Part shown: positions 1 to 17,175 of the stretch, in pieces
Numbering within the stretch: the first letter of the stretch is position 1
Layout of the letters: each line of letters starts with the position of its first letter
DNA from: Oscillospiraceae bacterium
GTDB lineage: Bacteria; Bacillota; Clostridia; Oscillospirales; Acutalibacteraceae
Reading direction: 5' to 3'
DNA: 64,000 bases
Assembly: GCA_031262985.1 (NCBI GenBank)
Contig: JAISGQ010000021.1
Coordinates: 1-64,000, forward strand
Position numbers and translations under genes: made by a program
Notes under the pieces: model-generated
Databases searched by the model: none
What the model saw: only the letters and a program-made list of their open reading frames with translations
Told to the model about the DNA's origin: nothing

Positions 1-3000
1 TCCGGTCTGTTTAAGTATCCTCTCGATACTCCCGCGCCTGCTATGCACAGTTCTCCCGGCATCCCGATTCCGCACAACGTGTTCCCTTGCAGTATGTATA
101 TCTGCGTGTTTGATATTGGCGTACCCACTGTGTTTTTGATTCTGCTCTTCTCAACCTTCAATTGAGCAGACCAAACGGTCGTTTCTGCAGGACCATACAC
201 ATTGTATACTTTTTCCGCGCCGTAATCTATGAGCATATCGCAGATATTTTTCGGCACCGATTCGCCTCCCAACAGCACCGATTTCAGCCTGCTCACGTTT
301 TCTCTGAACAACCTGCTTTCCATATATGACTTAATTCTGGATGGCGTAGTTTGTATTGTGTCGATACCATTCTCGGCGATTATCTCTGCTGCAATATCTC
401 CGAAATTCAAGGCATCCCCGGCGGCAATCACCACTTTTAATCCATTGAGCATGGTTAGTATCGCTTCCGTAACAAATATGTCAAACGATACTGTTGTAAC
501 TGATATTACGGTCGCTTGCTGTGATATAGCGTTTCCAAATACATTAAAGCTGTTCTCTGCACAGTAATTAATGACATTTCGCTGTTCGACCATAACCCCC
601 TTGGGTTTGCCGGTAGTTCCCGATGTGTAAATGAGATATGCCAGACTTGACGCGTCATTAATGATTTCCGGGTTCTTTGGGATACTGTTCTTGTACTCTT
701 CTTCCTTCAGATTGATCACCGGTATCTGACACAACGCATCGTCGAGTTCTGCTCCGCACACTAACACAGCCTTAGGCTTGCAGTCATCCAGCATATATTT
801 AATTCGCTCTTCGGGATACTCCGGATCTATCGGCACATATGCTCCGCCCGCCTTGAGTATTCCGAATATTCCTACTATCATCTCTATGCTGCGCTCGCTT
901 ATGACTGCTACAAAATCATCTGCTCCGACTCCGGTATTCCGCAGCTTCATCCCTACTGTGTTTGCTCTGCCGTTCAGTTCTCTGTATGTAAGGCTTTCGT
1001 CTCCGAACACTACCGCTATGCTTTCCGGATTTGTTCTTACCTGCTCCTCGAATATCTCCGCTATCGTCTTCTCTCTCGGATATTCACACTCCGTATCGTT
1101 GAAGTTGACCAGAATTTGATTTCGTTCTCCTTCTGTTGTACAATTGTATTTTTTTATTTTACACAGACTATTTTCTGTAACTTCACGCAACGAACTAATA
1201 TAACATTCTATAAATCTTTTTATGGTACTTTGCTCAAATAAATCCGAGCAGTACTCGCAATGTACTCTATATTCACTTCCATCAGGAACTATTTCAATGG
1301 CAATATCAAACATTGAAGAATGTGTTCTTATCTTTGAACCTTTGAACGATTCGCCTGCAATTGACAACTTGTTTTCTATATTGTTTTGCAACACAAGTAT
1401 AACGTCAAACAACGGATTTCTACTAGTATCTCTTTTCACACCCAGTCTTTCCACGATAAGTTCAAGGGGGCAATCTTGATTTTCAAACGCACCAAAACAA
1501 GCTGATTTTATTTCTTCAATAAAATCATTAAATGGCTTGTCTTTTTCAGGATATCCACGAATTGGGAGTGTGTTAACAAACATACCCGTAACATTTTCTA
1601 TTTGGCTTATATTCCTTCCCGATACCGGACACCCTATAACTACATCCTCCCTGTTGCCATATCTGCTTAAGATAATCATAAGCGCTGCTAATAAAACCAT
1701 ATACTCCGTTGCATTATATTGCTCGGCAATTTTTTTAATGTTTCCCGCTAGTTGTGTATCTATACTCGAAACAAACAAATCACCATTAAAGCTCTGGATT
1801 TCTGGGCGTTTTTTATCATAGGGAAGCTCAATTGGAGATATCTCGGAATCTAATGTATTCTCCCAAAACAAGAGTTGCTTCTGCCAATCAATAGCGTTAT
1901 ACCATTCACTAAAATCTCGGAATCGTATACAGTCCGGCTCGACGGTTTTGCCTTCATATATATCTGAAAGCTGCTCCATCATTATTCCCACGCTTGTTCC
2001 ATCGCATATGGAGTGATGGAAATCAACAAACAGATATACACCATCTTTGCACCAATTAATCTGCATTCTTGACGTATTCCCGTTTTTTAAATCAAAAGGT
2101 CTTACGAAATCAGAAGATAAATCCTCAAACGACTTATCAAAATCGGTTACAACAGAAAAATCCGGATCGACAGTATCCAATATCATCTGAACCGCTTCAC
2201 CTTCATGGTCGAAAAGAGCAGTACGAAGATTTTCGTTTATCTCAATTAGCTTTCTGTATGCGCATTGCATCTTATTTGCATCAATATTATCACTTAGCTT
2301 GAAGAAAAATGGAGTATTATAAGCTATACAATCATAATCATATTGTTGAATCGTATAAATTCGCTTTTGTGCGGACGGCATCGGATAATATTTCTTTTCC
2401 TCTGCTCTTTTAATACTCTCTGATCTATCGTTTGAAAAAACCAAAGAATCAATATTCCTAACTGTCCTAGCTCTAAAAACATCCTTTACAGTGGGTCTTG
2501 ATCCACATTTTTTCTCCAAATAATTGCAAAGCATAATAGTAAGTAATGAGTTTCCGCCCAACGCAAAAAAATCATCATCTATACCAACACCTTCGCACTT
2601 GAGTATAGTTTCGAACCCTTCGCAAATTAATTTTTGAGAGCTTGTTTCAGGCGCAAAATATTCTTTGCGTCTCTCACTGCTCGCAAGTTGTTCCAGAACT
2701 CCCAAATCAATCTTACCATTAATATTCAGCGGCATTTTTTCAAGGAACATATATTCGCTGGGAATGTAACTATCCGGAAGCTGTTTTCTTAAATTCAAAT
2801 CAATATCTGAAGACGTGATTTCTGTATTAGGAACAATAAACGCAAATATTGACTCTATTCCATTTCCGGTTTTTTTCACCACTTCAGCGGCCGCGACACC
2901 ACCGTTGTTAATAATTGTGTTTTTAATTTCATCCGGTTCTATTCTGACTCCATTTATATTGAACTGTCTGTCTATTCGTCCTAAAATTTCTAACTCGCCT

Positions 3001-4199
3001 TGGTCGTTTGTTCTAACCTTATCCCCCGTACGATAGAACACTTCACCAAATTCAGACAAATATACAAATTTTTGTGTAGTCAATTCTGCTGCACCAATAT
3101 ATCCAATTGAAACAGACGGACCACCTATATATAACTCTCCCGCCTCACCTGTTTTGCATGATTTGTTGTCTTTATTTAAAACTGTAGCCCTTACCCCGCT
3201 AACAGGTTTACCTATTGGCGGATCGCCGACTTCATTTCGGAAACAACAATGAGCTGTTGCTGATCCAGTTGCTTCTGTGGTTCCGTAACAGTTAATGATA
3301 TCAGCATTTGTAATGCCTCTGATTCTTTCAACTAATTTCTCTGCCAATCTTTCGCCAGCAAGCATTAAAACTTTAAAGTTTTGAAATGCTGAGTTTACAT
3401 CGCCAGAAATCAAAACTCCTATTCTCGATGGTGATGTTAATATAGTGTCAGCGTTATATTTCGTTACAAGGCAATTGAATTTTTCGGGATTAGTACGTTC
3501 TTCTTCTGTTGTCAGTATAGATGTGTAACCGAACATTCCCAAAAACAAGTCAAATAAAGAAGCCACAAAAGAGAATGTCGAAACAGAAACAATAACGCTA
3601 CCGTTACCTTTTATCATATTAAATGAATTGATACTGCTTGCAAGAATATTTCTGTGAGTCAAGACTGCACCCTTTGGAAAACCGGTCGTTCCTGAAGTAA
3701 ACATTATAGTTGCCGTGCTATCATTGCTAATATATGGCGGGTCAAAATCAACGATTTTCTCTCGATGGATACTGTTAATGGCAATTGTATGACAATTATT
3801 ACTTTCGCAAATTTCTGCAATCTCCAAATTATCATTTTCTATTACAGCCATTACAGCATTACTTTGATTGAGCATATAACTTATTCTCTTCTTCGGGAGA
3901 CTGGGATCTATGTATACATAAGCAGCTCCTGCCTTGAGCACGCCATACATAGCTGCAACTGTTTCAATACTGCGATCGGAAATAACAGCAATTGTGTCTC
4001 CTGACTTTATTCCCCTTTCAACAAAGGTATATGCAAAATTATCGGAATATACATCAAATTCGGCATAGCTGATTTTCATATTCCTGCAAATAAACAAATC
4101 TTTTTCTGCATACAAAGAAACTGCATCTCGAAAAACCTCAGGAATTGTCTTTTCCAAAATTATGCTATCTAACTGTTTTTTTGTTAACGGATACATCAT
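1..4199 (-). CDS. Non-ribosomal peptide synthetase, A-T-C-A..., 3' end outside window
   Basis: A large multidomain NRPS that assembles a peptide on carrier-protein thioesters. Reading from the start there is an adenylation domain (about residues 1-505; core motifs MFTSGTTGFPKG and NGK), a carrier domain with the phosphopantetheine serine in FFALGGNSLL (about residue 545), a condensation domain with HHSICDG (about residue 730), and a second adenylation domain from about residue 1040 with YIYTSGTTGKPKG-like and YGPAETT motifs, which runs off the left edge. The first A domain has Val where the alpha-amino-binding Asp235 (GrsA numbering) normally sits, so its substrate may not be an ordinary alpha-amino acid. 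The second has pocket residues close to the glycine code. Two ATGs are possible; the outer one (4199) has GGAGGG 7 nt upstream. It is the last visible gene of a minus-strand operon, just after the phosphopantetheinyl transferase that would activate its carrier domain. Confidence 0.95.
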   Translation of the reverse strand, partial: MMYPLTKKQLDSIILEKTIPEVFRDAVSLYAEKDLFICRNMKISYAEFDVYSDNFAYTFVERGIKSGDTIAVISDRSIETVAAMYGVLKAGAAYVYIDPSLPKKRISYMLNQSNAVMAVIENDNLEIAEICESNNCHTIAINSIHREKIVDFDPPYISNDSTATIMFTSGTTGFPKGAVLTHRNILASSINSFNMIKGNGSVIVSVSTFSFVASLFDLFLGMFGYTSILTTEEERTNPEKFNCLVTKYNADTILTSPSRIGVLISGDVNSAFQNFKVLMLAGERLAEKLVERIRGITNADIINCYGTTEATGSATAHCCFRNEVGDPPIGKPVSGVRATVLNKDNKSCKTGEAGELYIGGPSVSIGYIGAAELTTQKFVYLSEFGEVFYRTGDKVRTNDQGELEILGRIDRQFNINGVRIEPDEIKNTIINNGGVAAAEVVKKTGNGIESIFAFIVPNTEITSSDIDLNLRKQLPDSYIPSEYMFLEKMPLNINGKIDLGVLEQLASSERRKEYFAPETSSQKLICEGFETILKCEGVGIDDDFFALGGNSLLTIMLCNYLEKKCGSRPTVKDVFRARTVRNIDSLVFSNDRSESIKRAEEKKYYPMPSAQKRIYTIQQYDYDCIAYNTPFFFKLSDNIDANKMQCAYRKLIEINENLRTALFDHEGEAVQMILDTVDPDFSVVTDFDKSFEDLSSDFVRPFDLKNGNTSRMQINWCKDGVYLFVDFHHSICDGTSVGIMMEQLSDIYEGKTVEPDCIRFRDFSEWYNAIDWQKQLLFWENTLDSEISPIELPYDKKRPEIQSFNGDLFVSSIDTQLAGNIKKIAEQYNATEYMVLLAALMIILSRYGNREDVVIGCPVSGRNISQIENVTGMFVNTLPIRGYPEKDKPFNDFIEEIKSACFGAFENQDCPLELIVERLGVKRDTSRNPLFDVILVLQNNIENKLSIAGESFKGSKIRTHSSMFDIAIEIVPDGSEYRVHCEYCSDLFEQSTIKRFIECYISSLREVTENSLCKIKKYNCTTEGERNQILVNFNDTECEYPREKTIAEIFEEQVRTNPESIAVVFGDESLTYRELNGRANTVGMKLRNTGVGADDFVAVISERSIEMIVGIFGILKAGGAYVPIDPEYPEERIKYMLDDCKPKAVLVCGAELDDALCQIPVINLKEEEYKNSIPKNPEIINDASSLAYLIYTSGTTGKPKGVMVEQRNVINYCAENSFNVFGNAISQQATVISVTTVSFDIFVTEAILTMLNGLKVVIAAGDALNFGDIAAEIIAENGIDTIQTTPSRIKSYMESRLFRENVSRLKSVLLGGESVPKNICDMLIDYGAEKVYNVYGPAETTVWSAQLKVEKSRIKNTVGTPISNTQIYILQGNTLCGIGMPGELCIAGAGVSRGYLNRP

Positions 4200-4217
4200 A
4201 GTATTTCCCTCCAAAAG

Positions 4218-4904
4218 TTATATTATATTCTGCTTGTTGCTCATATTATGTAAGTTTTCAGCAAGTTCATTAAATGTCAATGGGACATGAATAATCTTGC
4301 TATGTGAACACGAGGCAAGCATACCAAAAATCCTTTTTTCTATCTTGAAATTCATATTATACAACTCAAATTCACCTCCATCGCATGACAAGCAGATAAA
4401 CTTTGAAAAATCTATTTGTTTTAAATCACAAAGTATTCCCGTGCCTAAATATTTAGTGTAGCTTTCCTTTAAAGCCCAAAGCAATGTAAATACATCGCTT
4501 TTATTTGTTGCATTTTCCACAGCCAAAAGTTCGTTTGAAGACATAAAATAATTTGCAATCTGTGCATCATAGGATGTAATGTCCTGAATATCAACACCAA
4601 TTGGCATTCCGGATACTCCGCAGGCAACTCCTGTATCGCAATGTGTCAGATTGAAGTGGATATCTCGGTTTTTCTCCAAAATCGGTTTCTTTTCTTTTTG
4701 GTATGTAAATTCCGGCATATGTTTTATTCCAAACTCAACGTATAATGAATATCGCAAAAGACAGAAAGCAAGCAAAGACAATGTTTTATCTTTCTGAAAC
4801 TTTAACTTGTCAATTTTTTTGCGTCTTTCAATTGATGCATAAGAAAGCAAAAGATTGTATGCTTCTGAATTAATTTCATCATTCAAGTTAATATAATATA
4901 GCAT
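4218..4904 (-). CDS. Sfp-type 4'-phosphopantetheinyl transferase
   Basis: Transfers phosphopantetheine from CoA to the serine of carrier domains, here most likely the NRPS carrier and the free-standing ACP of the same operon. The family signatures are visible: a FNLTHC segment, then GVDIQ (Mg-binding Asp) and WALKESYTKYLGTG, the conserved W-x-x-K-E-S-Y-x-K block. About 228 residues is the normal size for the Sfp/Gsp class. The ATG at 4904 has a TAGGTG ribosome site 6 nt upstream and lies one base past the stop of the preceding gene; a GTG at 4913, overlapping that stop, is the alternative. Translational coupling is likely. The NRPS begins about 20 bp downstream. Confidence 0.93.
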   Translation of the reverse strand: MLYYINLNDEINSEAYNLLLSYASIERRKKIDKLKFQKDKTLSLLAFCLLRYSLYVEFGIKHMPEFTYQKEKKPILEKNRDIHFNLTHCDTGVACGVSGMPIGVDIQDITSYDAQIANYFMSSNELLAVENATNKSDVFTLLWALKESYTKYLGTGILCDLKQIDFSKFICLSCDGGEFELYNMNFKIEKRIFGMLASCSHSKIIHVPLTFNELAENLHNMSNKQNII

Positions 4905-4905
4905 A

Positions 4906-6495
4906 TCATGCACCTAAGCTCATGGCAAAAATATGCATAGAATCACAATCAGGAAGAACAACCGATACTACAGGCGCATTAGGAAGCGATATTTTGATGC
5001 AGTAAACATATGCAGTTTCAGTATCGACCACCCTATTGCCTCTCACTACCGTCTTTTGAGTTTTAATAATTGCGTTTTCCGGAATGTCAGCATTCCAGTC
5101 AAGAACACACTCGTTCAAAATAATTCGTCTTTTATGCTGTGTTTTATCGTTACAAATTAATGTGATTTCCTCAATCTGATTGTCAAAATCCGAGCACCCA
5201 AGTATCAGAAGACTTTTGTATGTCCCCTCCGGTATCGGGATTTCATGCCCTAAACACGCAATATTGTCCGCAGAACCGCAATATGTATTCGGAAGAATAA
5301 ATTTATAATTTCCAGATTCCTCCAGAACTCCCGACGGAAAACTTTCACTTTTAAAATATTCATTTTCTCTATTAAAATCAGCACTGCTGATTTCCGACCC
5401 AACTGCAGTGTTATTGCAATAAGTGTCTATATTAATACACAAAAAGTCATCTAAAATAACTTCAGTATCTATTGCCGGCTCAGAGTGCGCATTAGTATCG
5501 GCTTTAACTAATAAATCAATTGTTTCTTTTATTAAGCTTTCTTCTTCTTCTATAATTTGCTCAAGCTTTCTGCTGAAATCCTCAGCTATTCTTTCAATTC
5601 TATTGGAAAATATGCGTTTCAGAAACATTAATCTTGCAGAATTCCATTTTTTAGCAAGAATTATGAATTCTTCATGAAAACCAATTAAACCGACATATTC
5701 ATCACAAACGGAACTTATATAAGAAATAAGTAACGCAAAGCGTACCCTGTTGTGAACGATATCTTTTATTGCTCTATTAATTGCAATATTATCCTGTATC
5801 TCTTCACTAACAACGCTCTCGTTGCCTATATAATTTTTAATATCTTTTTCTATATCAAAATTACAGAGAATCTCATTAGGCATTTTTTTCATAGATACAA
5901 TATAAGAATCGGAAAGAGCAATGCGAAGATTCTCTAAAAGACGCTCGTCCGATCTAAATTTAACGTGCTCACTTTTCTCGACAATAAAATGTTCAATGTA
6001 TCCAAGAAGAAACTCCTGATAAGAAAAATATCCGCTATTTACAAAATAGTACGGATCATCGCATATCAGCACTTCCTTGTCGTCATCGAAGCCCGTAACA
6101 AACATTGTGTGACTTCCGTTATGAATTTCATGATACCGCCAATCCCACGGGCAAAAAAAGCCTGTAACACATACTAAAACAGGCTTGCCGTCAATAATAT
6201 TTTTTTTAATTTCCTCAATTATTTCCTCTGCTTTATATACGTGCAATTTAAGAGAAATACCATAGCAATCTCTAACATTATCTAAAAATTCTGTTTCGAA
6301 AATTATCTTTTCTCCAATAGAAACATTCGATTTTTCGTAATCCATTCGATTTTTAAGTGCGCCATAATAAGTATATTCATAACTTAAACCAAAATATCTG
6401 CAAATTGTAGCAATACAATCATCAAAACAAAAACCAGGTGTTGTGTTATTGTCTATTCTCGGTATCCGAACCAGATCCATATGCAGTTTTTTCAT
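4906..6495 (-). CDS. BtrH-like / C39-fold protein with C-terminal beta domain
   Basis: The N-terminal part resembles the butirosin-biosynthesis BtrH N-terminal family, a cysteine-peptidase-like fold that in butirosin synthesis transfers an acyl chain from a carrier protein to an acceptor. Visible pieces are GFCFDDCIATICRYFG (candidate Cys, about residue 22), SHTMFVTGFDDDKEVLICDDP (His and Asp of the fold, about residues 127-147), and a long helical middle with EEEE near residues 315-320. The C-terminal 150 residues look beta-rich, similar to a galactose-binding-type sandwich. An ACP lies directly upstream and a PPTase and NRPS downstream, which fits a carrier-to-acceptor acyltransferase role; that role is inference. 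The ATG at 6495 was preferred over GTGs at 6504/6507, which sit on top of the AAGGG ribosome site. Confidence 0.7.
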   Translation of the reverse strand: MKKLHMDLVRIPRIDNNTTPGFCFDDCIATICRYFGLSYEYTYYGALKNRMDYEKSNVSIGEKIIFETEFLDNVRDCYGISLKLHVYKAEEIIEEIKKNIIDGKPVLVCVTGFFCPWDWRYHEIHNGSHTMFVTGFDDDKEVLICDDPYYFVNSGYFSYQEFLLGYIEHFIVEKSEHVKFRSDERLLENLRIALSDSYIVSMKKMPNEILCNFDIEKDIKNYIGNESVVSEEIQDNIAINRAIKDIVHNRVRFALLISYISSVCDEYVGLIGFHEEFIILAKKWNSARLMFLKRIFSNRIERIAEDFSRKLEQIIEEEESLIKETIDLLVKADTNAHSEPAIDTEVILDDFLCINIDTYCNNTAVGSEISSADFNRENEYFKSESFPSGVLEESGNYKFILPNTYCGSADNIACLGHEIPIPEGTYKSLLILGCSDFDNQIEEITLICNDKTQHKRRIILNECVLDWNADIPENAIIKTQKTVVRGNRVVDTETAYVYCIKISLPNAPVVSVVLPDCDSMHIFAMSLGA

Positions 6496-6616
6496 AATTG
6501 CCACCACCCTTTCCTGTAAATAATAAATATTATCACTCTACAATAAACCCGTTTCCACGCAACAAGAGATACTATTACACCCAAATGTGCGGAGAATTAA
6601 ACACAGAGAGATTAAT

Positions 6617-6865
6617 TCATTTCACTTTTTTAAGAATATATTTTGAAATATCACTTATTTTATTATAAGATGAAGCATCTAATGCTTCATCATCAAACTC
6701 AAATTCAAACACATCTTCAAGCGCAACTATAAGTTTTATAAAATCCAATGAATTCATGCCTAAATCTGCAAATTCACTATCAGCAGTTATATCCATACCG
6801 TCCCTTGCAAGCTCTAATGTGTTGATTTTCTCAATAATTGTCTCTGTTATAGCTTCCATCATCAT
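6617..6865 (-). CDS. Acyl carrier protein, free-standing
   Basis: A small acidic carrier protein of about 82 residues with the phosphopantetheine attachment motif LGMNSLDF; the serine is around residue 38. It is followed by the typical helix IKLIVALEDVFEFEFDDE of ACPs. Three successive ATGs occur; GGAGG lies 4, 7 or 10 nt before them, so the second (6862) may be the real start. The product would carry an acyl or aminoacyl intermediate as a thioester on the arm installed by the PPTase of the same operon. Its position next to two BtrH-like proteins recalls the BtrI/BtrH pair of butirosin, but a partner for the neighbouring NRPS is equally possible. Confidence 0.93.
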   Translation of the reverse strand: MMMEAITETIIEKINTLELARDGMDITADSEFADLGMNSLDFIKLIVALEDVFEFEFDDEALDASSYNKISDISKYILKKVK

Positions 6866-6879
6866 TTTTCCTCCAAAAT

Positions 6880-7719
6880 CTATGTATTTAAAAAAAGTTT
6901 TGCATCGTCTCTTCTAACTACCATAGGAAACTCGGTCGGCAGTACACCATCGGTTTTAGGTGGGATTTTTAGTTTTAAAGAAACCCCTTTGTCGCCCCTG
7001 CCAATAAGTCTATTGGCAAACCATATTACCACCTCATTTTTACCGGAATGGAAATCAGTATCAATCAATACTTTCCTAAGCAATAGTTTTTCTTCTGATT
7101 TCATATAACCTAAATCTTTATTGTTGCACCAAATTTGCACATCACCACTTGCACCGATACTCAACGCAAGTTTTGTATCATGATGAGAAAAGAACGTAAA
7201 GCGCATTAATACAGCATTGTCGGCAGGATATGCCCGCCGCCTGTTGAGTACTCTTGGTTTTATAACATTTGCACACGTGATAAAGGGAGTAAAGGTAATT
7301 TCTTTATCCGCAGAAAAGTTATGACCCTCTACAAACCTATCAATAGAATAAAATTGAGAAATCTCTCCACAGCGTATATATGGTGAACAATCTTTGTCAT
7401 CCTCTAAATATAACTTAAAATCAGGAAGTTTGTTTCCTTCATCGTCATATATAAAACAATTGCCTTCCGTACAGTATAGTATATAGGAATCTGAAAAATT
7501 TAATAGTGCATTATATGTTGCTAATGTGTATATTCTAACCTCGTTTCCGTCTGTTCGCACACCGGAAACAGGAAATGGCTGATAATCTTCAGTAAAAAAC
7601 TGAACCCCCCCATTCTTGCCTTTTGTATGTAGCCGTCCCTTTACACCGTCCAAAAAAAGAATTATCATAAGACGCTGCCGAGTCCCATACATTGAGGTCT
7701 CAACCCTGCTCAAAACCAT
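6880..7719 (-). CDS. Unknown protein, N-terminus doubtful, possible frameshift
   Basis: Not recognised. The readable frame gives 279 residues, largely beta-strand-like, with a C-terminal part (about residues 165-270) that resembles an accessory jelly-roll domain. It lies 14 bp upstream of the ACP, so it is probably co-transcribed. The start is weak: the ATG at 7719 sits 13 nt after GGAAAGG, and the best-placed ATG (at 7730) opens a six-codon frame. Between 7605 and 7611 there are seven consecutive G residues on the coding strand. Just upstream of this tract another frame is open and protein-like (it includes YDNSFFGRCKGTATYKRQEW) and would join the long frame after a one-step slip. Either the gene is frameshifted, or expression is phase-variable, or the long frame is right as it stands. 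Confidence 0.55.
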   Translation of the reverse strand: MVLSRVETSMYGTRQRLMIILFLDGVKGRLHTKGKNGGVQFFTEDYQPFPVSGVRTDGNEVRIYTLATYNALLNFSDSYILYCTEGNCFIYDDEGNKLPDFKLYLEDDKDCSPYIRCGEISQFYSIDRFVEGHNFSADKEITFTPFITCANVIKPRVLNRRRAYPADNAVLMRFTFFSHHDTKLALSIGASGDVQIWCNNKDLGYMKSEEKLLLRKVLIDTDFHSGKNEVVIWFANRLIGRGDKGVSLKLKIPPKTDGVLPTEFPMVVRRDDAKLFLNT

Positions 7720-7774
7720 AAAAGATTCATGTCCTTTCCGAATTTTATGCCAAAAAAGACATAAAATCTTATTG

Positions 7775-7811
7775 AAAAAAGGGCGGCTTCTAACCAGCTT
7801 ACAAGCCGCCC
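7775..7811 (-). terminator. Intrinsic terminator inside the NRPS island
   Basis: On the minus strand GGGCGGCTT and AAGCCGCCC form a perfect 9-bp stem around a 13-nt loop, followed by six T. It lies after the glycosyltransferase gene at 8029-9339 and before the unknown gene, so it splits the cluster into an upstream transporter/glycosyltransferase unit and a downstream ACP/NRPS unit, or lowers read-through between them. Confidence 0.8.
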
Positions 7812-7837
7812 TTCATAGGATGCAAACTGGTTCTCAA

Positions 7838-7936
7838 GATAAATTTCCCCGCCGCAAGCAGCGGGGTATTTGCAGGATAACGGTTTTATAAGGATTCGCC
7901 CCAAGGGGCGGGGAATCAAACCCTACCTTTTATTGA
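7838..7936. repeat. Two-hairpin repeat, copy 1 (second copy at 16730)
   Basis: About 97 bp nearly identical to 16730-16826. It contains the hairpin CCCCGC-N8-GCGGGG and the hairpin CGCCCC-AA-GGGGCG, joined by a conserved stretch GGTTTTATAAGGATTCGCC. The second copy abuts the end of an IS1595-family transposase remnant, so this copy is probably a solo end or miniature derivative of that element. The differences between the copies are scattered substitutions. Confidence 0.75.
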
Positions 7937-8028
7937 AAATTTTTCAACTTCGCCAAAAAGAACAAACCAGTCTCCTCAGCAAGACAGCTGTTATTACTCC
8001 CAAGGAGCAAGGAACTTAACCTGAAAGA

Positions 8029-9339
8029 TTAAATTTCCTCCACTTGCTTGCTCAGAAGCAACCGTGCTCCATCTTTCCATTTCATTTCATAATAATTTTC
8101 ATCATACTCGTATCTATCGTACCACTGTATTATATGAGTCACGCCAAATATATTTCCGAACAAGAATATTACATCGTTGCTTGCGTTCACATCATAATAA
8201 GACGGCAACTGAATTATATTCTTAGATATCAGCACTTTCCCGCTAATTCTAATCAATTCCTGGAGTACAGAACCAAACATATTTGGCGGAATAAGAGAAT
8301 ATGCTCCCGAAACGAAAACACGCTTAAATCGTCCGTCAACAAAAGGAAGTGCATATCCAAATAATTCCACGCGCTTTCGTTCGCCATGTTCAACATATTC
8401 GACAAGCCCGTTTTCATGTTCCGGAAGGCAAAAATACACTGCGACCTCACCCTCCAGCAAAGTAATTTCCTCATATGTGTTATTCGCCTTTATATATGCG
8501 TAAATTTTGTCGTAGTAGTCTCTCATTCGTGGGTCAGTATTAACTCCCCAGCAACAAATCATTTCGGTTTCCCTGTTTCTGTATTTGTTTAACATATAAT
8601 ACAGATTTTGAAGATTACTATACGCATTTTCAAATTGATTTTTATTGTGAGGACGATGATATGACACGATTTCCGGAACAAATACTATTTTCCCTTTCGG
8701 ATTAAGTCGATAAGCAAACTCCATATCCTCTACGCCCCAACGATGGAAATTCTCGTCAAACCCTCCGATTTCCTCAAACAGTTCTCTTCTTGCCGTTGCA
8801 AACGATGTGAAGTAATTTGGCCAGTTTCTGCTTGTGTCTGCCACAAAATGCCCCCACAAAGATCTGTAATCAGCAACCAATTTATATTCCGACAAATTAG
8901 AAAAATCTTTTTTTACCATACTGTCAAAATCTTCAATACTACAATGGGTAATGAGTTCAAACTGTTCAAGAGTGTGATTGTTTCCATACACTGTACCGTT
9001 TAGACCTGCAATATTCGTGTCTTCGTGTGTCTCTCTTACAATACGCAAATTATCGGGTGCAATAATAACATCACTGTCGATAAAAACAAGTATTTCATTT
9101 ACAGCCTCCCTTGCGGCTCTGTTTCTCACAGCGGAACGATTTCCGTTAGACGAAAACTCTATTATTTTATCAATATGTCCACTGTACGACTTAATTATTT
9201 CCAAAGAATCGTCATCGGAAGAATCGTCAATAACGATAAACTGGTCTTCCTTATCCAGTTGACAAATAATAGAATTAATGCACCATTCGACACTATCCCT
9301 CCTATTTTTATTAATTAACAGAACGCTCAATTTAATCAT
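8029..9339 (-). CDS. GT2 family glycosyltransferase with methyltransferase-like C-terminus
   Basis: A GT-A fold glycosyltransferase. The N-terminus has the family start SVLLINKNR, a nucleotide-binding IDDSSDDDS stretch, the metal-binding DxD as FIDSDV (about residue 91) and the acceptor-side WGVEDMEFAYRL (about residue 220), so it looks catalytically complete. Residues about 290-436 form an extra module shared with the two neighbouring glycosyltransferases; its core ELFGYALPFVDGRFKRVF followed by LQELIRISGKVLIS resembles the second half of a class I methyltransferase but lacks the glycine-rich SAM motif. The ATG has GGAG 9 nt upstream. A terminator lies about 220 bp downstream. Probably modifies the product of the NRPS island; the sugar and acceptor cannot be told. 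Confidence 0.85.
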   Translation of the reverse strand: MIKLSVLLINKNRRDSVEWCINSIICQLDKEDQFIVIDDSSDDDSLEIIKSYSGHIDKIIEFSSNGNRSAVRNRAAREAVNEILVFIDSDVIIAPDNLRIVRETHEDTNIAGLNGTVYGNNHTLEQFELITHCSIEDFDSMVKKDFSNLSEYKLVADYRSLWGHFVADTSRNWPNYFTSFATARRELFEEIGGFDENFHRWGVEDMEFAYRLNPKGKIVFVPEIVSYHRPHNKNQFENAYSNLQNLYYMLNKYRNRETEMICCWGVNTDPRMRDYYDKIYAYIKANNTYEEITLLEGEVAVYFCLPEHENGLVEYVEHGERKRVELFGYALPFVDGRFKRVFVSGAYSLIPPNMFGSVLQELIRISGKVLISKNIIQLPSYYDVNASNDVIFLFGNIFGVTHIIQWYDRYEYDENYYEMKWKDGARLLLSKQVEEI

Positions 9340-9381
9340 TTTGTCATCTCCTTAGCCTAAAATACATTAAATAATGGGGAC

Positions 9382-10317
9382 TTATATTTCACTTGAATTT
9401 TTAATAAAATATCGCCAATAATCATATTCTTTACGCATACACCGCCAAGCCGATCTCTGTGCATCTTCATAATTGGGAACCTTGCGATTCATCCAGCTTT
9501 TCAAAAACTTCATTCTGAGCAAATTCCAGCCACGCTGAGTATCTTCGCACATAACCTTTACGTCTTCGCATAGATGTTTTCCGATTTCGCCTTGCTCATA
9601 TAACATATCCATAAGCATAATATTTGCTTTCTGTCGGTCTACAAATTTCGTTAAATCGTAGCACCTATCCTCGGTATAATCACTTTTATCACACTTCCAA
9701 AAATTGCAATAACTTATTTTAGCAATGTCGGCGCAAATACTCCTGGCATTTGCGCAAACAGTTTCCAGATTAAAAACAAAGGGCTGCCGTTTATCGGAAA
9801 TCACCAGTTCTAAAAGATCGGTATATGTTTGCAAAACAACTGATCTTTTGAAATTTTCTATTGATACCTTATTTTCTCCGTATCCTCTATCGCTATCAGC
9901 AAAACAATACAACTCATCTTTTTCGTCATCGTAGCCGCTGAAGATCCATGAGTGTATTTGATGTGTGTTGTTATAATGAAGGCTCTCCTCGATGAGAGAA
10001 AAGCTGTCAACAGCTACAACTATCAAGCGATTATCGTCTATGTATTTTTTTATCGTTGGAATCAAGTTATTGCTGTCAACTCCTTCAATACGCCTAACCT
10101 CAGAAAAACTTAAGAGAATTTCATATAAACTTTTAAAATATCTTATTTCCAAAGTTTGCCACCAAATACTGTTTCCGAAATTTATGTAATTATATCCATT
10201 GAGAAGCATTAATTTTTTATAGCTATCATCAAGTGAAGTAGCTATTGAAGCCGCCATATTTAAATTGCATTCCAACCAGTAATCTGTATAGGGTGTGTAA
10301 TTTATTTTTTTTATCAC
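9382..10317 (-). CDS. BtrH-like / C39-fold protein, second paralogue
   Basis: A 311-residue protein with the same general plan as the protein at 4906-6495 but without the C-terminal beta domain. A candidate cysteine occurs in YWLECNLNMAASIA near residue 17, and the His/Asp block is HQIHSWIFSGYDDEKDELYC (about residues 119-138), aligning with SHTMFVTGFDDDKEVLICDD of the other protein. The last 120 residues are helical and rich in Trp, Lys and Arg. Start is GTG with AAGGTG upstream. It sits between two glycosyltransferase genes, which suggests that it works on the same intermediate. Transfer of an acyl group from a carrier protein is a guess from BtrH; a proteolytic or purely structural role is possible. 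Confidence 0.6.
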   Translation of the reverse strand: MIKKINYTPYTDYWLECNLNMAASIATSLDDSYKKLMLLNGYNYINFGNSIWWQTLEIRYFKSLYEILLSFSEVRRIEGVDSNNLIPTIKKYIDDNRLIVVAVDSFSLIEESLHYNNTHQIHSWIFSGYDDEKDELYCFADSDRGYGENKVSIENFKRSVVLQTYTDLLELVISDKRQPFVFNLETVCANARSICADIAKISYCNFWKCDKSDYTEDRCYDLTKFVDRQKANIMLMDMLYEQGEIGKHLCEDVKVMCEDTQRGWNLLRMKFLKSWMNRKVPNYEDAQRSAWRCMRKEYDYWRYFIKNSSEI

Positions 10318-10342
10318 AAAATCACCTTGAATTAATTATTTT

Positions 10343-11659
10343 TTAACACAACTGTACTGACTTTTCAAAAACAACAGTAACATCGTCTGACATAGATACG
10401 AGAACATAATCTTCGTTATAATCTTCAAAAATAAAATTCTCTATAAATTGACTAATATAGCAGCAGTTTTTCATAAGGGGATTACCGTTGTAAGTGCCTG
10501 GACAATCGAACGGAGCAGCAATGGTATCAATTGTTTTTTTTGAAACCAACACTACCTCTGCATATCTAAGTGCTTCTTGAAGAACAATTGCAAGTAAAAT
10601 ATCAGAAAGCATACTGTATGCACCGGAAATATACACCTTTGATATTGACTTATCGGCAAACGGAACGGCAAATCCAAACAACTCAATATTTTCAACAACG
10701 TCATTTTTCATTACTCTAATAATTCCGTTTGGATGTTTCAGATCCGGAAAATGCAAATCCGCCTCAGAATTGCCGATATCTGCAAACTCACTATTATTAT
10801 TTTCAGCCATGTATTTGCATAGATATCTGAAATTATAAATTTTCCATGCTTCTATATCCTGCTTAAATGCACAGAAAATCTCTAAATCAAAACACCTGTG
10901 CTTATTTAATATAAAGTACATATTGGGAATATCACTTTTTGCTTGACGAAACATATTTTTTCCGTGCGGATGATGAAACGCCAAAAGTTCCTTTAGATAT
11001 ACAACTTTCCCTTTTTTGCTTAATCTATATCCTAATTCTATATCCTCGCTTCCCCATGTTGTGAAAAATTCATCAAATCCACCAAGTTTACGGTAAATCG
11101 ATGTCCTTACTGCATTGTAACAGCCGAAATAGTATCGCCAACTGCCTACTAAATCTTGGTCTGGATTATTGGCATAAAAATACCTGTAATCCAAAAATTC
11201 AGGATAATCGTAAAGTATGTCAGGATTTTCAATAAATTTTTCGTAAAAGCGACTTGGACTTAATCCTGAAAGCAACTCAAATTGAGCTTCATCATGACCG
11301 TTCCCAAACACCGTGCCTGACGCACCTACAATCTCTTTATCATCGAAAAGCTTTCTTATTATATTTATATTGCCCGAACATATTGTTGTATCTGAATCTA
11401 CAAATAAGAGCAACGGATTATTTACCGACTCAACCGCCATATTTCTAACGTATGCAAGATTCCCTTTAGAATTACACGTAATCAATGCACTTATTTTGTC
11501 TATGTACTTTGAAATTACTTCCACAGAATCATCATCCGAATTATCGTCCACAACAAAAAACTCGTCGCCATCTTCGAGCTGATTGATTATGGCTTTCAAG
11601 CTGTGTTCGATGCAAAAGCCTCTGTTTTTATTAATCATAACAACACTTACCGCGTTCAT
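10343..11659 (-). CDS. GT2 family glycosyltransferase with methyltransferase-like C-terminus
   Basis: Paralogue of the enzyme at 8029-9339. It keeps SVVMINKNRG at the N-terminus, VVDDNSDDDS, the DxD motif as FVDSDTTI and the WGSEDIELGYRL motif, so it should be active. The shared C-terminal module (about residues 300-438) contains IELFGFAVPFADKSISKVYI and LQEALRYAEVVLVSKK. The ATG at 11659 has GGAGGGG 6 nt upstream; an earlier in-frame codon at 11674 would overlap that ribosome site. The start lies 15 bp from the end of the preceding glycosyltransferase gene, so the two are translationally close. Duplication from a common GT ancestor within the cluster is likely. Confidence 0.85.
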   Translation of the reverse strand: MNAVSVVMINKNRGFCIEHSLKAIINQLEDGDEFFVVDDNSDDDSVEVISKYIDKISALITCNSKGNLAYVRNMAVESVNNPLLLFVDSDTTICSGNINIIRKLFDDKEIVGASGTVFGNGHDEAQFELLSGLSPSRFYEKFIENPDILYDYPEFLDYRYFYANNPDQDLVGSWRYYFGCYNAVRTSIYRKLGGFDEFFTTWGSEDIELGYRLSKKGKVVYLKELLAFHHPHGKNMFRQAKSDIPNMYFILNKHRCFDLEIFCAFKQDIEAWKIYNFRYLCKYMAENNNSEFADIGNSEADLHFPDLKHPNGIIRVMKNDVVENIELFGFAVPFADKSISKVYISGAYSMLSDILLAIVLQEALRYAEVVLVSKKTIDTIAAPFDCPGTYNGNPLMKNCCYISQFIENFIFEDYNEDYVLVSMSDDVTVVFEKSVQLC

Positions 11660-11674
11660 ATAAGACCCCTCCAA

Positions 11675-12931
11675 TCAGCTCTTTATAAAATCTGACGATA
11701 TATTTTTGTTGTATTTTACACTGCATCCTTCTTTCCAAACAACCAATATGAAATCTCCGTTGCGACTAAAATCAAAATAGTTAACTGTACTTACTATCGC
11801 GTGGTTTTCATTAAATTCCCACGGAATTTCAAATTTGCCGATATTTGAATGTATCCTTGCCTCTGTTTGTGCTGTGACCAAAGCTACCGTTTCTGCTATG
11901 CGTAAGCATTCCTGAAGCAACGCAGCCAAAATTCCTTCCGGCAAAAAACAGTATGAGTACGATATGACTGCTCTCTTAAAGTGACGGTTGGAAAACGGAA
12001 GCATAAACCCAAACAGTTCAATTCCTTTTTCCTTGCCATCTTCGACGTACCTGCACCAACCGTTCGGATGAGAATTATCAGGAAGCGATATGTAGATTTC
12101 GTTGTTAAAGAGTGTGAAACTGTTCAATTGCGCATCTTTGTTGTCGCAAATATATTTGCAAAGTTTTTTCATATTTTCTAATGCCTCAGGAACATTCACA
12201 GATGGAAAACTCAAAGATATTTCCATTTCTAAGCTATGCTTCTGATTCAAAAGACGATATTGATCTGAAAAAACCGGAGTTAAGTCGCCCATGAACATTT
12301 TTCTGCGTTTATCATAAAATATATATGTTTCGTTTAAAGCAATGCACTTCCAATGAGTTTTTGATCTTATAAAGAAATCATTGAATGAAGCTTTTGCTGT
12401 CTTGTATGTATCGTCAAGTCCGCCAAGCGAGACAAACGAAGCCTTTCGTATTGCACACTGTCTGGAAATGTTGAAAATACTGTTATACAGACCGCTATAA
12501 TTATCTTCTCCAAAATTCCTAATATTAAAATCCGGTACATATTTAGCAAAAATACCAAAATCTTCATACGCCAACGAAATAATATCTTCAAATGAAACTC
12601 CGATAATCTGCTTCATTCGACTCAGAGAAGACATAAAAATAATGTATCCGCTGACAGCAATTGCGATCGTACTATCTTCAAAACTTTTTCTTATATTATC
12701 CATATAATCAGAAGACGGGAAACATCCGGAATCTAAAAACACGAGAATATCGCCGGTTGACTTTGATATAATAGCATTAATAATGCCAATATACTCGACC
12801 TCGTTCTTATATTCATCCTTCTGTATATACAAAATCTCGTCATCCTGCAATAACCCTCTTCGCACATATTTTTCGCTTATAGCAGAGGCGTTTTCTTTAT
12901 CGAGAACATGATAAATTACACTTATTTTCAA
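11675..12931 (-). CDS. Degenerate GT2-like protein with the same C-terminal module
   Basis: Third member of the glycosyltransferase set, 418 residues, but the catalytic signatures are damaged. The DxD motif reads FLDSGCF instead of DSD, and the WGxED motif is replaced by FNDFFIRSKTHWKC. The C-terminal module is well kept: DNSHPNGWCRYVEDG, IELFGFMLPFSNRHFKRA and LLQECLRIAETVALV. This suggests a pseudoenzyme whose C-terminal module still matters, perhaps as a partner of one of the active glycosyltransferases; an alternative is a diverged enzyme using another metal ligand. It starts with TTG behind GAGAGGAG. It follows the ABC transporter genes by 15 bp. Confidence 0.75.
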   Translation of the reverse strand: MKISVIYHVLDKENASAISEKYVRRGLLQDDEILYIQKDEYKNEVEYIGIINAIISKSTGDILVFLDSGCFPSSDYMDNIRKSFEDSTIAIAVSGYIIFMSSLSRMKQIIGVSFEDIISLAYEDFGIFAKYVPDFNIRNFGEDNYSGLYNSIFNISRQCAIRKASFVSLGGLDDTYKTAKASFNDFFIRSKTHWKCIALNETYIFYDKRRKMFMGDLTPVFSDQYRLLNQKHSLEMEISLSFPSVNVPEALENMKKLCKYICDNKDAQLNSFTLFNNEIYISLPDNSHPNGWCRYVEDGKEKGIELFGFMLPFSNRHFKRAVISYSYCFLPEGILAALLQECLRIAETVALVTAQTEARIHSNIGKFEIPWEFNENHAIVSTVNYFDFSRNGDFILVVWKEGCSVKYNKNISSDFIKS

Positions 12932-12945
12932 TATAATACTCCTCT

Positions 12946-14736
12946 CTAATTGTAAAATTGCGCTTGATGGCTAAACATATCAGCGTATTCTCCGCCCAAG
13001 GATATAAGTGAATCGTGATTTCCGGATTCGCATATTTCTCCGTTTCTGAAAACTAATATTCGGTCGGCAAAACGTGTGCTTGATAGCCTGTGAGACACAT
13101 AAATAGCAGTTTTATCTCCTATTAGGCTGTTAAAATTTGAGTAAATTTCATTTTCTGCTATCGGGTCAAGTGCCGCTGTTGGCTCATCAAGAATTATTAT
13201 AGGAGCATCTTTGTATAATGCTCTTGCAATCGCTATCTTCTGCGCTTCGCCGCCGGAAGGTTCTATCCCGTGCTCATCAAATATTTTATATATTGTGGTA
13301 GATACACCTTCGGGAAGCTTCTCGAACTTTTTGTCAAGTCCAACTATCTCAGAAACCTCGGCAATACGAGAGTATTCATCCTCGCTTATGTCATGCTTTG
13401 TTGCAATGTTTTCGGCTATACTGTACGCAAATAGCATAAAGTCTTGAAATACTACGGAAAAAAGCTTATAACATTCCTCAACACTGTAGTAACGGATATC
13501 AATTCCGTCAATCAATATATTTCCGCTTTCCGGCTCATACATTCTGCAAAGCAATTTGCATAATGTTGTCTTACCCGCCCCGTTGCGACCGACAATTGCA
13601 ACCCGTTCTCCCGGCTTGATTAACAGAGAAACATTTTTAAGCGCATACACCTTCGACCTTGGATATTTAAAAGTTACATTTTTAAATTGTATTGTGTGTT
13701 TATCTGATATTATGTGTTCACGTTTTCCATCGCTCTCTAATGACGGCAACTCCATAAAGTTTATATAATCCTTCAAAAAGTTTCGTTGCGCTCTACTTTG
13801 CATCACTTTTTCAATACATCCGTTTATGCTGGTATCAAGAGTCAGCGCGGAGGTAATAAGCATAGTAAAGTCACCGTAACTAATAACTTTATTTATTAAG
13901 AGAATACCTAAATAAAAGAATCCGAATATTTGGGACAACGATTTGAATGCATCGCTGAAAAGAACTTTATTTTTCCTGTTTTCGGCCTGAACCTTCATTC
14001 CTTTTTCGATACATTCATTTTCATAGTTGCTGACCTTGTCCATAATGAGTTGGTTGCCGTTATACATTTTGAGATCCTTTGCATACTTTTGCGTGGTGAG
14101 GTGAGTAAAATAATATAAAAATTTTCGCTGAATAACAGATATATTTCTCTGTGCATCAACATTAATTTCGTTAATTTTGTGAATTATAACCGCTCTCAAA
14201 AATGCGGAAATCAAACAGACTATCAAAAGCGGCGGAGCATAATAGAAAATTATTGCAATTACACCTAACGCAGATACAATATCCGATATGATTCCGCATA
14301 TATTAACCATATATGCTTGTACGCCACCTGAACTATCCTCAATTCCACTTTTCGCCTTTTGCATTTTGTTCAAAATATCAGGATCTTCCAAATTAAAGTA
14401 TGGCATATTCATAACTTTTTTGCAGATAAGCCGATTAAAATATCTGTTGTACGAATCACCATATTTTTCGCACAATTGCTGGCACATTGCAATAATGTAA
14501 TTAAAAACAAATGCGGCAACACAGTATGATGCCACATATATCACAAGTGTGCGTAAATCTCTTCTGCCTGAAAGTTCTTCAACAATAAGCTTTATCGAAA
14601 ATATAGACAAAAACGGCAACACAGCAGCAACTATAGTTTTTACAAACAGCAAAAAAACCATTTGAGGAGTATGAAGAAGTGCTTTTGCGATAAGGTGAAA
14701 ATGCACTACCTTTGGTTTATGCGTGCTATTGCCCAT
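12946..14736 (-). CDS. ABC exporter half-transporter, TMD-NBD
   Basis: A fused permease-ATPase of the exporter class. Six membrane helices fill roughly residues 20-310; the nucleotide-binding domain has Walker A GRNGAGKTT, the signature PSGGEAQK (in place of LSGGQ), Walker B IIILDEPTAALD and the H-loop VSHRLSS, all intact. The ATG at 14736 is chosen because GGAGGTG lies 6 nt upstream; it overlaps the end of the companion transporter gene by 11 bp. The tight overlap and the similar size indicate that the two proteins form a heterodimer, exporting the cluster's product or providing self-resistance. A lipid or peptide cargo cannot be decided from sequence. Confidence 0.92.
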   Translation of the reverse strand: MGNSTHKPKVVHFHLIAKALLHTPQMVFLLFVKTIVAAVLPFLSIFSIKLIVEELSGRRDLRTLVIYVASYCVAAFVFNYIIAMCQQLCEKYGDSYNRYFNRLICKKVMNMPYFNLEDPDILNKMQKAKSGIEDSSGGVQAYMVNICGIISDIVSALGVIAIIFYYAPPLLIVCLISAFLRAVIIHKINEINVDAQRNISVIQRKFLYYFTHLTTQKYAKDLKMYNGNQLIMDKVSNYENECIEKGMKVQAENRKNKVLFSDAFKSLSQIFGFFYLGILLINKVISYGDFTMLITSALTLDTSINGCIEKVMQSRAQRNFLKDYINFMELPSLESDGKREHIISDKHTIQFKNVTFKYPRSKVYALKNVSLLIKPGERVAIVGRNGAGKTTLCKLLCRMYEPESGNILIDGIDIRYYSVEECYKLFSVVFQDFMLFAYSIAENIATKHDISEDEYSRIAEVSEIVGLDKKFEKLPEGVSTTIYKIFDEHGIEPSGGEAQKIAIARALYKDAPIIILDEPTAALDPIAENEIYSNFNSLIGDKTAIYVSHRLSSTRFADRILVFRNGEICESGNHDSLISLGGEYADMFSHQAQFYN

Positions 14737-16573
14737 CCTTAACACCTCCGGATTTGTAGTATTGAGCCTGTACTTCATATAATTCACTATATCTGCCTTT
14801 TTTGAGAAGCAGTTCGTCATGTGTACCGTATTCTACCAATCTGCCATTTTCAAACATAGCAACCTTATCACAAAAACGAGTAGAAGAAAGTCTGTGGGAT
14901 ATGTATATTACTGTTTTCCCTTGAACCAGCCTGTCAAAATTCATATATTGATTATACTCCGCCACCGCGTCAAGCGCGGCTGTCGGCTCATCCATGATTA
15001 CTATAGGTACATTTTTGTACAACGCCCTAGCAAACGCAAGCTTTTGTCTTTCTCCTCCCGAAAAATCAACGCCCTCACTATCAATCAATTTAAGCATGGG
15101 TGTATGAAGCCCATATTTAAGAGAGGTTAGTTTATGTGCAAGACCGGAATCAATTATACACTGTTTGACACGTTCCTCATCCGCCTCATTTTTATCGCAC
15201 ATTGCTACATTTTCAAGAAATGACAGAGCGAATATCACAACATCTTGAAACGCCGGAGCTATTATAGAATAATACTCTTCTTTTTCAATTTGTTCGATAT
15301 CAACTCCATTAAGAAATATCTTTCCTTCAGTAGGTTTGTATAACCTTAAAAGAAGCTTTATAAGAGTTGTTTTACCTGCGCCATTAAGTCCTATAATTGC
15401 CAAGCGTTCTCCTGCGGAGATTGTAAGATTAACATTTTTCAGCGCATATTCCTCGCGCCCCGGATATTTAAATGATAAATTTGACACTCCGAATCTAAAT
15501 TTATCTGTTTTGGGCAAATACTTTTTCCCTATCATACCGCGCTCCTCAGGCAAATCAACAAATGCCCTGTAGTCGTTAATCTGACGAGAATACATATTCA
15601 TATTTACCCTACAGTCAAAAACTGCATTTATACCTGCAATAAAAGCATATGTAGATTGATAGTACAACGCAAAATCGGAGATGAGCATATCTTTTGATAG
15701 TGTGCTATAAACCAAATAGCCATAAAGAAATATATCTCCCGCCATAACTAAAAATTGGTTTAAAATTGCAAATATCAACCAGTTTCTCTTTGATTTCGCA
15801 ATGAGAGCATGGGCTTCATCACTGACTTTTTCGTGCTTGCCTTTTAACCACCGATTCATATTATACGCACGAATATCTTTTGCATATTCGAAATCAGTTG
15901 TCGATTTATAAATATAGTCAACTCTGCGCCAATATGGAGACATCCTGTCCCATACGAATTTTTTATCGTTCTTTTTTGTTTTATCCATCAAAAACAACCG
16001 AATAACACAAATAAATGACATGACCACCACTAAATATATGTTCAAGTTTGACAATATTAAAAATGATGCTATTGTACTTACAAAACAAGCCAAAATTTTT
16101 AAAATTTCGGCAATCATACCTGACACTCCGCTTGCGCCGGAGGAATCCGCTTCAAGTGCCTTGCGCTGCAAATCAAGAATTTCCGGAGACTCAAACTTAT
16201 CATAACTGAGATCAAAGAATTTATTTATTCTCATCTTTTTGAAGTGTACTGCAATATATTCAAAACGCCACTGCATACCATTGTTAATCAGCGCTGAAAT
16301 GCCAATCATCAAAAGAATAGTTGTACCTAAAATCAAAAGCGTCGAAATAAGCTCATCCATATCACCGCCACGCTCAACAATTGATATAATCAGCTTGGAT
16401 GCAACAGCAGTCGCAAGCGGCAACACGCCCACCATCAAAGAAAGAATCGGAATCAAAAAACTCATTGATGGCAGTCTTTTGCATGAAAATCGCAAAACAT
16501 ACATCATATTATTGAAAAGAGAATGATTTTTCGGCCATCCTTGTTTGCCTTTTCCGGTCTGATTGCCTTGCAT
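14726..16573 (-). CDS. ABC exporter half-transporter, TMD-NBD (first gene of operon)
   Basis: Companion of the preceding transporter, 615 residues: a soluble N-terminal stretch, about six membrane helices to residue 310, then an ATPase with GLNGAGKTT, FSGGERQK, IVIMDEPTAALD and ISHRLSS. Neither half shows the degenerate site seen in asymmetric exporters, since both retain the catalytic Glu and His. It is the first gene of the minus-strand island and lies about 50 bp downstream of a good sigma-A promoter (16622-16650). No C39 protease domain is attached, so it is not a bacteriocin-processing ABC of the usual type. Confidence 0.92.
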   Translation of the reverse strand: MQGNQTGKGKQGWPKNHSLFNNMMYVLRFSCKRLPSMSFLIPILSLMVGVLPLATAVASKLIISIVERGGDMDELISTLLILGTTILLMIGISALINNGMQWRFEYIAVHFKKMRINKFFDLSYDKFESPEILDLQRKALEADSSGASGVSGMIAEILKILACFVSTIASFLILSNLNIYLVVVMSFICVIRLFLMDKTKKNDKKFVWDRMSPYWRRVDYIYKSTTDFEYAKDIRAYNMNRWLKGKHEKVSDEAHALIAKSKRNWLIFAILNQFLVMAGDIFLYGYLVYSTLSKDMLISDFALYYQSTYAFIAGINAVFDCRVNMNMYSRQINDYRAFVDLPEERGMIGKKYLPKTDKFRFGVSNLSFKYPGREEYALKNVNLTISAGERLAIIGLNGAGKTTLIKLLLRLYKPTEGKIFLNGVDIEQIEKEEYYSIIAPAFQDVVIFALSFLENVAMCDKNEADEERVKQCIIDSGLAHKLTSLKYGLHTPMLKLIDSEGVDFSGGERQKLAFARALYKNVPIVIMDEPTAALDAVAEYNQYMNFDRLVQGKTVIYISHRLSSTRFCDKVAMFENGRLVEYGTHDELLLKKGRYSELYEVQAQYYKSGGVKDGQ

Positions 16574-16621
16574 AAGTTCACTCCAATATATTTTATTATG
16601 TCGTTCTTTGCTTCTCGTTTA

Positions 16622-16650
16622 ATTATAACATACATTTATAGAGATTGCAA
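16622..16650 (-). promoter_or_regulatory. Sigma-A promoter of the NRPS-island operon
   Basis: Minus strand TTGCAA, 17-bp spacer, TATAAT. The start point would be about 35-45 bp before the ATG of the first ABC transporter gene. All genes from 16573 down to 8029, and with read-through those down to the left edge, could be served by it. Confidence 0.75.
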
Positions 16651-16729
16651 AACAATTTGTGTCAATTTAACAAGAAAACACAAGTTCCATTGAGAACAAA
16701 AACAATTAATACCAACCACTGATATAATA

Positions 16730-16826
16730 AATTTCCCCGCCGCAAGCAGCGGGGTATTTGTAGGATAGCGGTTTTATAAGGATTCGCCACAGGGGGCGGG
16801 GAATCAAACCCTATCTTTTATTAAAT
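16730..16826. repeat. Two-hairpin repeat, copy 2, abutting transposase remnant
   Basis: Near-identical partner of 7838-7936 with the same two GC hairpins. It begins directly at the 3' end of the IS1595-type transposase remnant (whose stop codon it overlaps), so it is probably the terminal non-coding part of that insertion sequence. Confidence 0.75.
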
Positions 16827-17086: not shown

Positions 17087-17175
17087 ATCAAGTGCAGAAC
17101 ACTTTACAAGCCACCTAAATTTTGCATAAAAAATTTGGAACTTTAAACTGAGAAATATAAAATACTCAGTTCAAC

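Follow-up and report, generated by a model that had tools for sequence, protein, structure and literature searches.

A clostridial gene cluster with a predicted single-chain AziU3-AziU2-type protein beside nonribosomal peptide synthetase and glycosyltransferase genes

Results

We analysed positions 1 to 64,000 of contig JAISGQ010000021.1 from an Oscillospiraceae bacterium (assembly GCA_031262985.1); this whole stretch is referred to as the window. An AT-rich, co-directional run of genes extends along its minus strand from 16573 to 3 in the order ABC1, ABC2, GT3, GT2, C39B, GT1, ORF5, ACP, C39A, PPTase, NRPS (Table 1). These encode both halves of an ATP-binding cassette (ABC) exporter, three glycosyltransferase (GT) paralogues, two C39/BtrH-like proteins, an orphan protein, a free acyl carrier protein (ACP), a phosphopantetheinyl transferase (PPTase) and a nonribosomal peptide synthetase (NRPS) with adenylation (A), thiolation (T) and condensation (C) domains. 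Our main subject is C39A, which appears to unite in one chain the two subunits of the azinomycin aziridine synthase, AziU3 and AziU2. An earlier note on this DNA had described an AT-rich island with NRPS, ACP, PPTase, BtrH-like, GT and exporter genes. All of these genes are intact minus-strand frames with Pfam assignments, and the guanine-plus-cytosine (GC) content is ~0.34-0.42 in the cluster block compared to mostly 0.47-0.57 across the remaining window; absent from its gene list were ORF5 and a 104-bp repeat present in two copies.

Table 1 Features of the minus-strand gene run and of its border
Feature	Position	Strand	Description
NRPS	3..4214	-	1404 aa, open at contig end; Pfam: two AMP-binding, one Condensation, one PP-binding
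NRPS domains	A1 ~4157-2685; T1 2627-2451; C2 2393-1110; A2 1052-12	-	Pfam
PPTase	4218..4913	-	Sfp-type, 231 aa; PF01648 (ACPS superfamily) E 4e-13
C39A	4906..6507	-	533 aa, two-domain fusion
ACP	6617..6865	-	free ACP, 82 aa; PF00550 E 8e-11
ORF5	6880..7719	-	279-aa orphan, start uncertain
104-bp repeat	7839..7942	-	strong hairpin between GT1 and ORF5; terminator-like
GT1	8029..9339	-	436 aa, GT2-type; PF00535 E 4e-18, 66 bits; DSD present
C39B	9382..10317	-	311 aa, C39/BtrH-like; Cys17 and His122 conserved
GT2	10343..11674	-	443 aa, GT2-type, GT1 paralogue (34% identity); PF00535 E 2e-15, 58 bits; DSD present
GT3	11675..12931	-	418 aa, degenerate third paralogue; 19 bits; DSG replaces DxD; N-terminal part shortened
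ABC2	12946..14820	-	exporter half; PF00005 and PF00664
ABC1	14726..16573	-	other exporter half; PF00005
Island border	16727..17110	-	second 104-bp repeat copy (16727-16830) and broken IS1595-like transposase tail
tRNA-Gln (CTG)	17215..17288	-	adjoins island border

C39A consists of an N-terminal BtrH_N/C39-type domain carrying Cys27, His133 and Asp151 (residues 1 to about 345) and a C-terminal AziU2-type beta-sandwich (residues about 352-533, bases about 5454-4906). The Pfam C39/BtrH_N signal of the first domain has E values of 2.4e-7 and 8.7e-6; with 26.4 bits C39A does not reach the BtrH_N cut-off of 29.7 bits, nor does C39B (13.9 bits), while a fused relative at locus L080 scores 40.9. In a PDB search, the last 180 residues matched AziU2/Azi28. 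A profile of Streptomyces AziU2 proteins applied to the 515 frames of the window had C39A as its sole match (1.8e-13), and one of Streptomyces AziU3 proteins matched only C39A (8.9e-6) and C39B (2.6e-4). A profile built from clostridial fused proteins only matched AziU2 in the PDB at 3e-21 and Streptomyces AziU2 genes at 5e-14 to 1e-18; AziU3 in the PDB was not found by this profile, and the AziU3 half of C39A is the weaker match. When the clostridial fused family was compared by hhalign, the values were 99.1% to AziU2, 96.8% to AziU3 and 0.1% for the control. An AziU3 profile match at 2e-23 was set aside because the profile itself contained Streptomyces AziU3 rows; the separate-profile tests were used instead.

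C39A resembles AziU3/AziU2 (Azi29/Azi28; PDB 7wuw, 7wux and 8gs1) in both domains, in the conserved Cys, His and Asp positions that it has in common with AziU3, and in the AziU2 motifs NN, DNI-C-GQ and LP..HIFA. By its sequence, then, the beta-sandwich is a clear AziU2 homologue and C39A has the AziU3/AziU2 architecture in one chain, with the AziU3-type part first, whereas the azinomycin pair is encoded by two adjacent genes. The earlier note had taken it for one of two BtrH-like proteins, which holds for the BtrH/C39 domain, but the separate-profile and hhalign matches make an AziU3-AziU2-type fusion the better description. The AlphaFold model of C39A, made from a two-row alignment, was poor, with a predicted local distance difference test score of 38.7. 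The beta-sandwich tree did not resolve, so we claim no branching order, and no C39A relatives were found in the phage and viral collections.

A two-row profile search detected fused proteins in several Clostridia, with no more than four matches per genome, and one also in a Lachnospiraceae genome. Across an alignment of C39A and 13 other fused proteins, Cys27, His133, Asn365-Asn366, Asp414-Asn415, Cys418 and His525 were invariant (14/14), and Asp151 was nearly so (at least 90%). Fused genes are accompanied at locus L084 by genes for an ATP-grasp protein, an ACP, a pyridoxal phosphate-dependent decarboxylase, a thioesterase and an A domain, and at L047 and L080 by an aminoacyl-tRNA synthetase-like protein, an ACP, an A-T didomain, a PPTase and transporters. 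At L081, two unfused C39 proteins lie beside an A domain, an ACP and an exporter, and relatives of the free ACP occur beside or inside other C39 clusters. Within the window's own family, C39 relatives likewise accompany A domains, carriers, PPTases and exporters. Because neighbourhoods combining C39 proteins, carriers and A domains or NRPSs are found across Clostridia, clusters of C39 proteins with thiotemplate genes are a recurring clostridial type.

Two further arrangements were observed among these relatives. An NRPS frame of 5273 residues that starts at 9774 in L083 and runs on into L101 (G766:C1) opens with a BtrH_N domain. A carrier domain comes directly next and then C-A, so that a BtrH-type domain is built into the NRPS itself. 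At L026 (3979-18528; G154:C86), one run encodes a PPTase-like protein, an A-T didomain, a C39 protein, two radical SAM proteins, an electron transfer flavoprotein, a hexapeptide transferase and twin exporter genes; we know of no name for a C39-type cluster of this kind.

C39B gave a weak Pfam C39/BtrH_N signal (6e-4 and 0.07) but aligned to the fused family at 96.6% by hhalign, and it has homologues at L077 (E 1.7e-27) and L097 (E 5e-33), the latter adjoining a 1495-residue NRPS. The closest neighbourhood found for the C39B/C39A pair is that at L077, where the C39B homologue stands directly before the fused protein. This locus (4601-11400; G845:C2) encodes, in a row, a weakly GT8-like protein, an FkbH-ACP protein, the C39B homologue, the fused C39A homologue and a short-chain dehydrogenase/reductase.

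Azinomycin-type clusters of Streptomyces were reached from a plasmid search with C39A, through its C-terminal part. Loci L049, L050, L093 and L094 are azinomycin-type azabicycle clusters on Streptomyces plasmids in which AziU2-type and AziU3-type genes are adjacent. At each of the four annotated Streptomyces loci, the gene for a 'BtrH N-terminal domain-containing protein' comes directly after that for a short 'hypothetical protein'. The same loci encode, next to these two, LysW, ArgB/ArgC-type enzymes, a LysX/RimK-type ligase and a transketolase pair. The Streptomyces BtrH protein corresponds to AziU3 by PDB match (205-206 bits), and the AziU3-type protein is assigned to BtrH_N with 83 bits. 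AziU3 is thus itself a BtrH_N protein, and C39A holds both halves in one chain.

In an alternative reading, C39A would be a one-chain synthase of aziridines or other small rings. It would displace a leaving group, for instance sulfate, from an amino acid held on a carrier and so close the ring, and the product of the cluster would be an alkylating agent. AziU3/U2 is an aziridine synthase acting by sulfate displacement (PMC12559475; PMC9570651); the single chain of C39A represents both subunits with the AziU2 motifs kept, and since AziU3 has Cys, His and Asp at equivalent positions and yet belongs to such an enzyme, some small probability attaches to aziridine formation by C39A. However, the sequenced part (1-17000) showed no sulfotransferase, LysW-type carrier, LysX or transketolase and no DADH pathway genes, the LysW set being present at 4/4 Streptomyces loci; the neighbours of C39A are instead an ACP, a PPTase, an NRPS and GTs, and the clostridial relatives accompany ACP, A-T and FkbH genes. 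We consider ring closure by C39A improbable, and it would be a long shot that C39A and its clostridial kin as a group are single-chain small-ring (aziridine-type) synthases, or catalyse some other new carrier-bound cyclisation, in NRPS/GT pathways of anaerobes.

The three GT paralogues set the window cluster apart. GT1 and GT2 exceed the Glycos_transf_2 cut-off, carry a DxD motif and share an N-terminal GT-A domain with known GT2-family glycosyltransferases (chondroitin polymerase, TarP/TarS and SpsA type); the earlier note had counted three GT2-like proteins, of which the third, GT3, is degenerate. Unlike those known enzymes, all three have a C-terminal domain with an ELFGxxxPF motif and without a confirmed relative. 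Nothing was confirmed for this domain in the genome-contig collection, nor in viral contigs with the full GT profile, although the collection scans may miss relatives because only two short peptide patterns were used. Its profile gave one weak 73-residue match in 391 genomes of the class and one weak match (E 0.005) among nine relatives. Full-length GT1 had no match at E 1e-15 in 394 genomes of the order, and the 20-kb surroundings of the clostridial relatives contained no gene matching GT1-GT3 at E 0.001. The predicted model of GT1 was weak (53.5), and its fold search returned only ordinary GT-A folds; a reading of the GT1 C terminus as a decayed methyltransferase is unsupported.

The three GT2-type proteins could also make an oligosaccharide that serves as the scaffold to which the NRPS, ACP and C39 enzymes add aminoacyl groups, giving an aminoacylated glycan as in butirosin instead of a glycosylated peptide. 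BtrH acylates an aminoglycoside (PMC10318531), the GT domain is closest, among PDB entries, to glycosyltransferases that polymerise sugars or act on wall polysaccharides, and a beta-sandwich of the C39A type also follows the catalytic part of GH38-type mannosidase proteins. Against this, the sequenced part showed no genes for sugar-nucleotide or aminosugar biosynthesis, GT3 looks inactive, and AziU2, which is the same domain, does not act on sugar; we regard a glycan scaffold as unlikely. The mannosidase proteins (L014 and L018; G007) are GH38-type alpha-mannosidases of about 2100 residues, and their AziU2-like domain has no Pfam or NCBIfam model.

The NRPS is cut off at base 1 of the window, which is the end of assembly contig C50 in a draft genome of 1.96 Mb and 79% completeness; the gene is truncated by the assembly and not by any genetic break that can be seen. 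Its remaining part was not located in the draft genome, where no other condensation domain was found. Alignments read by hand show that A1 carries Val at the Asp235 position of alpha-amino-acid A domains (SFVAS compared to SFDGS in linear gramicidin synthetase), and its substrate is therefore probably a carboxylic acid without a free alpha-amino group. The A2 code, also read by hand, is DITQLGVVW, which we take to be nearest to the glycine code, a weak comparison.

The nearest curated NCBIfam models are AusA for the NRPS and AusB for the PPTase, the aureusimine enzymes, and the A-T-C-A order is the same. The run could thus consist of two unrelated adjoining units, one an AusA/AusB-like NRPS and PPTase whose product is a dipeptide aldehyde or pyrazinone, the other a GT/C39/ACP/exporter pathway; the terminator-like repeat also separates the GT block from the ACP/C39A block. 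However, the scores are far below the cut-offs (981/2500 and 72/225 bits), A1 lacks the Asp that holds the alpha-amino group, and the neighbours are very different from those of AusA/AusB. The PPTase frame shares 8 bp with C39A, and only 3 bp separate it from the NRPS. No convincing NRPS-type reductase domain was found in the draft genome, though the NRPS tail, where the terminal reductase would be sought, is missing from it; NAD_binding_4 matches sit on frames of 324-628 residues elsewhere, which do not resemble the reductase end of an NRPS. Two separate units are, in our judgement, quite unlikely.

Elsewhere in the run, the called ABC1 and ABC2 frames have 95 bp in common, GT3 directly adjoins GT2, and a promoter-like sequence lies just upstream of ABC1 (about 16651-16622, a consensus match only). 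ORF5 had no match in Pfam or NCBIfam, none of significance in the PDB and none among plasmids. The two 104-bp repeat copies are direct repeats, 92-93% identical; the genome holds three more, close to IS1595-type pieces, and in one case the copy immediately follows a fragment of an IS1595-type transposase. The repeat is possibly an insertion sequence end or a miniature inverted-repeat transposable element. The low GC content and the end of the block near tRNA-Gln, with its broken IS1595-like transposase tail, fit horizontal acquisition, and the cluster was probably acquired in this way. Beyond the border, an ordinary lysine riboswitch (21177-21355) precedes an aspartate-semialdehyde-dehydrogenase-like gene at 21655.

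Discussion

We interpret the run as a thiotemplated cluster for an exported small molecule, in which the C39B/C39A pair moves an acyl group from a carrier within an NRPS/GT pathway, a reading to which we give about an even chance. The gene content, the domain make-up, the AziU2/AziU3 homology, the conserved active-site residues and the recurring C39-plus-carrier sets are shown by the sequences; all of the chemical steps, the acceptor and the product are inferred. The PPTase would arm the carriers, and the NRPS would build an acyl-aminoacyl chain, its first module probably starting with an acid lacking a free alpha-amino group and A2 resembling glycine-type A domains. The free ACP would carry a second acyl group. 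Like BtrH, the C39B/C39A pair would take this group off the carrier, using a papain-type Cys-His-Asp centre, and attach it to an amine or hydroxyl of the product; the acceptor site is probably shaped or covered by the beta-sandwich of C39A. Sugars would be added by GT1 and GT2, with GT3 probably non-catalytic, and the twin ABC exporter would secrete the product.

Acyl transfer from an ACP is the most likely role because the free ACP adjoins C39A. BtrH is described as an ACP:aminoglycoside acyltransferase (PMC10318531), and C39A and C39B resemble BtrH and related acyltransferases (PF14399, DUF4872 and NF053550) in their C39-like fold signal, active-site residues and nearby free ACP; they differ in that C39A lies just under the Pfam cut-off and has the extra AziU2-type domain, and C39B is weakly matched. 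In closthioamide-type assembly, also clostridial, carrier proteins are reported to act with cysteine-protease-like proteins that form amide bonds (PMC8868522). The cluster likewise combines carriers with C39 proteins of a putative cysteine-protease-like type, but has no thioamide or ATP-grasp gene and does have a modular NRPS.

Several points weigh against acyl transfer by the C39 pair. A separate loading enzyme for the free ACP was not seen in the sequenced part. The C39 fold is itself no proof of acyl transfer, because AziU3 shares these Cys, His and Asp positions but is part of an aziridine synthase. Four fused relatives (L072, L074, L076 and L079) lack a recognised carrier gene within 20 kb, and the NRPS tail and everything left of base 1 are missing from the sequence.

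The earlier note had suggested that this gene combination was not one recognised from a characterised pathway and may make an undescribed glycosylated or acylated peptide. We found no close match to a known characterised cluster, and the GT part is without a confirmed relative across the genomes and collections covered; the core of C39 protein, carrier, A domain or NRPS and exporter, on the other hand, recurs in the family and in Clostridia. We also found no published link between BtrH-type fusions and AziU3/U2, though coverage of the literature was partial and this is no proof of novelty.

AziU3/U2, a functional aziridine synthase, has been described as having a novel fold (PMC11168924). The sequence matches now connect both of its subunits with a larger group of fused BtrH-type proteins in Clostridia, many of which lie beside carrier-protein genes; this suggests that the AziU3/U2-type ring-making enzyme arose from carrier-protein acyltransferases. 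The window cluster contributes two more features, an NRPS whose starter site is unusual and a GT family for which no relatives are confirmed. The fused BtrH-type family offers a testable origin for AziU3/U2 and a sequence handle for related chemistry in anaerobes.

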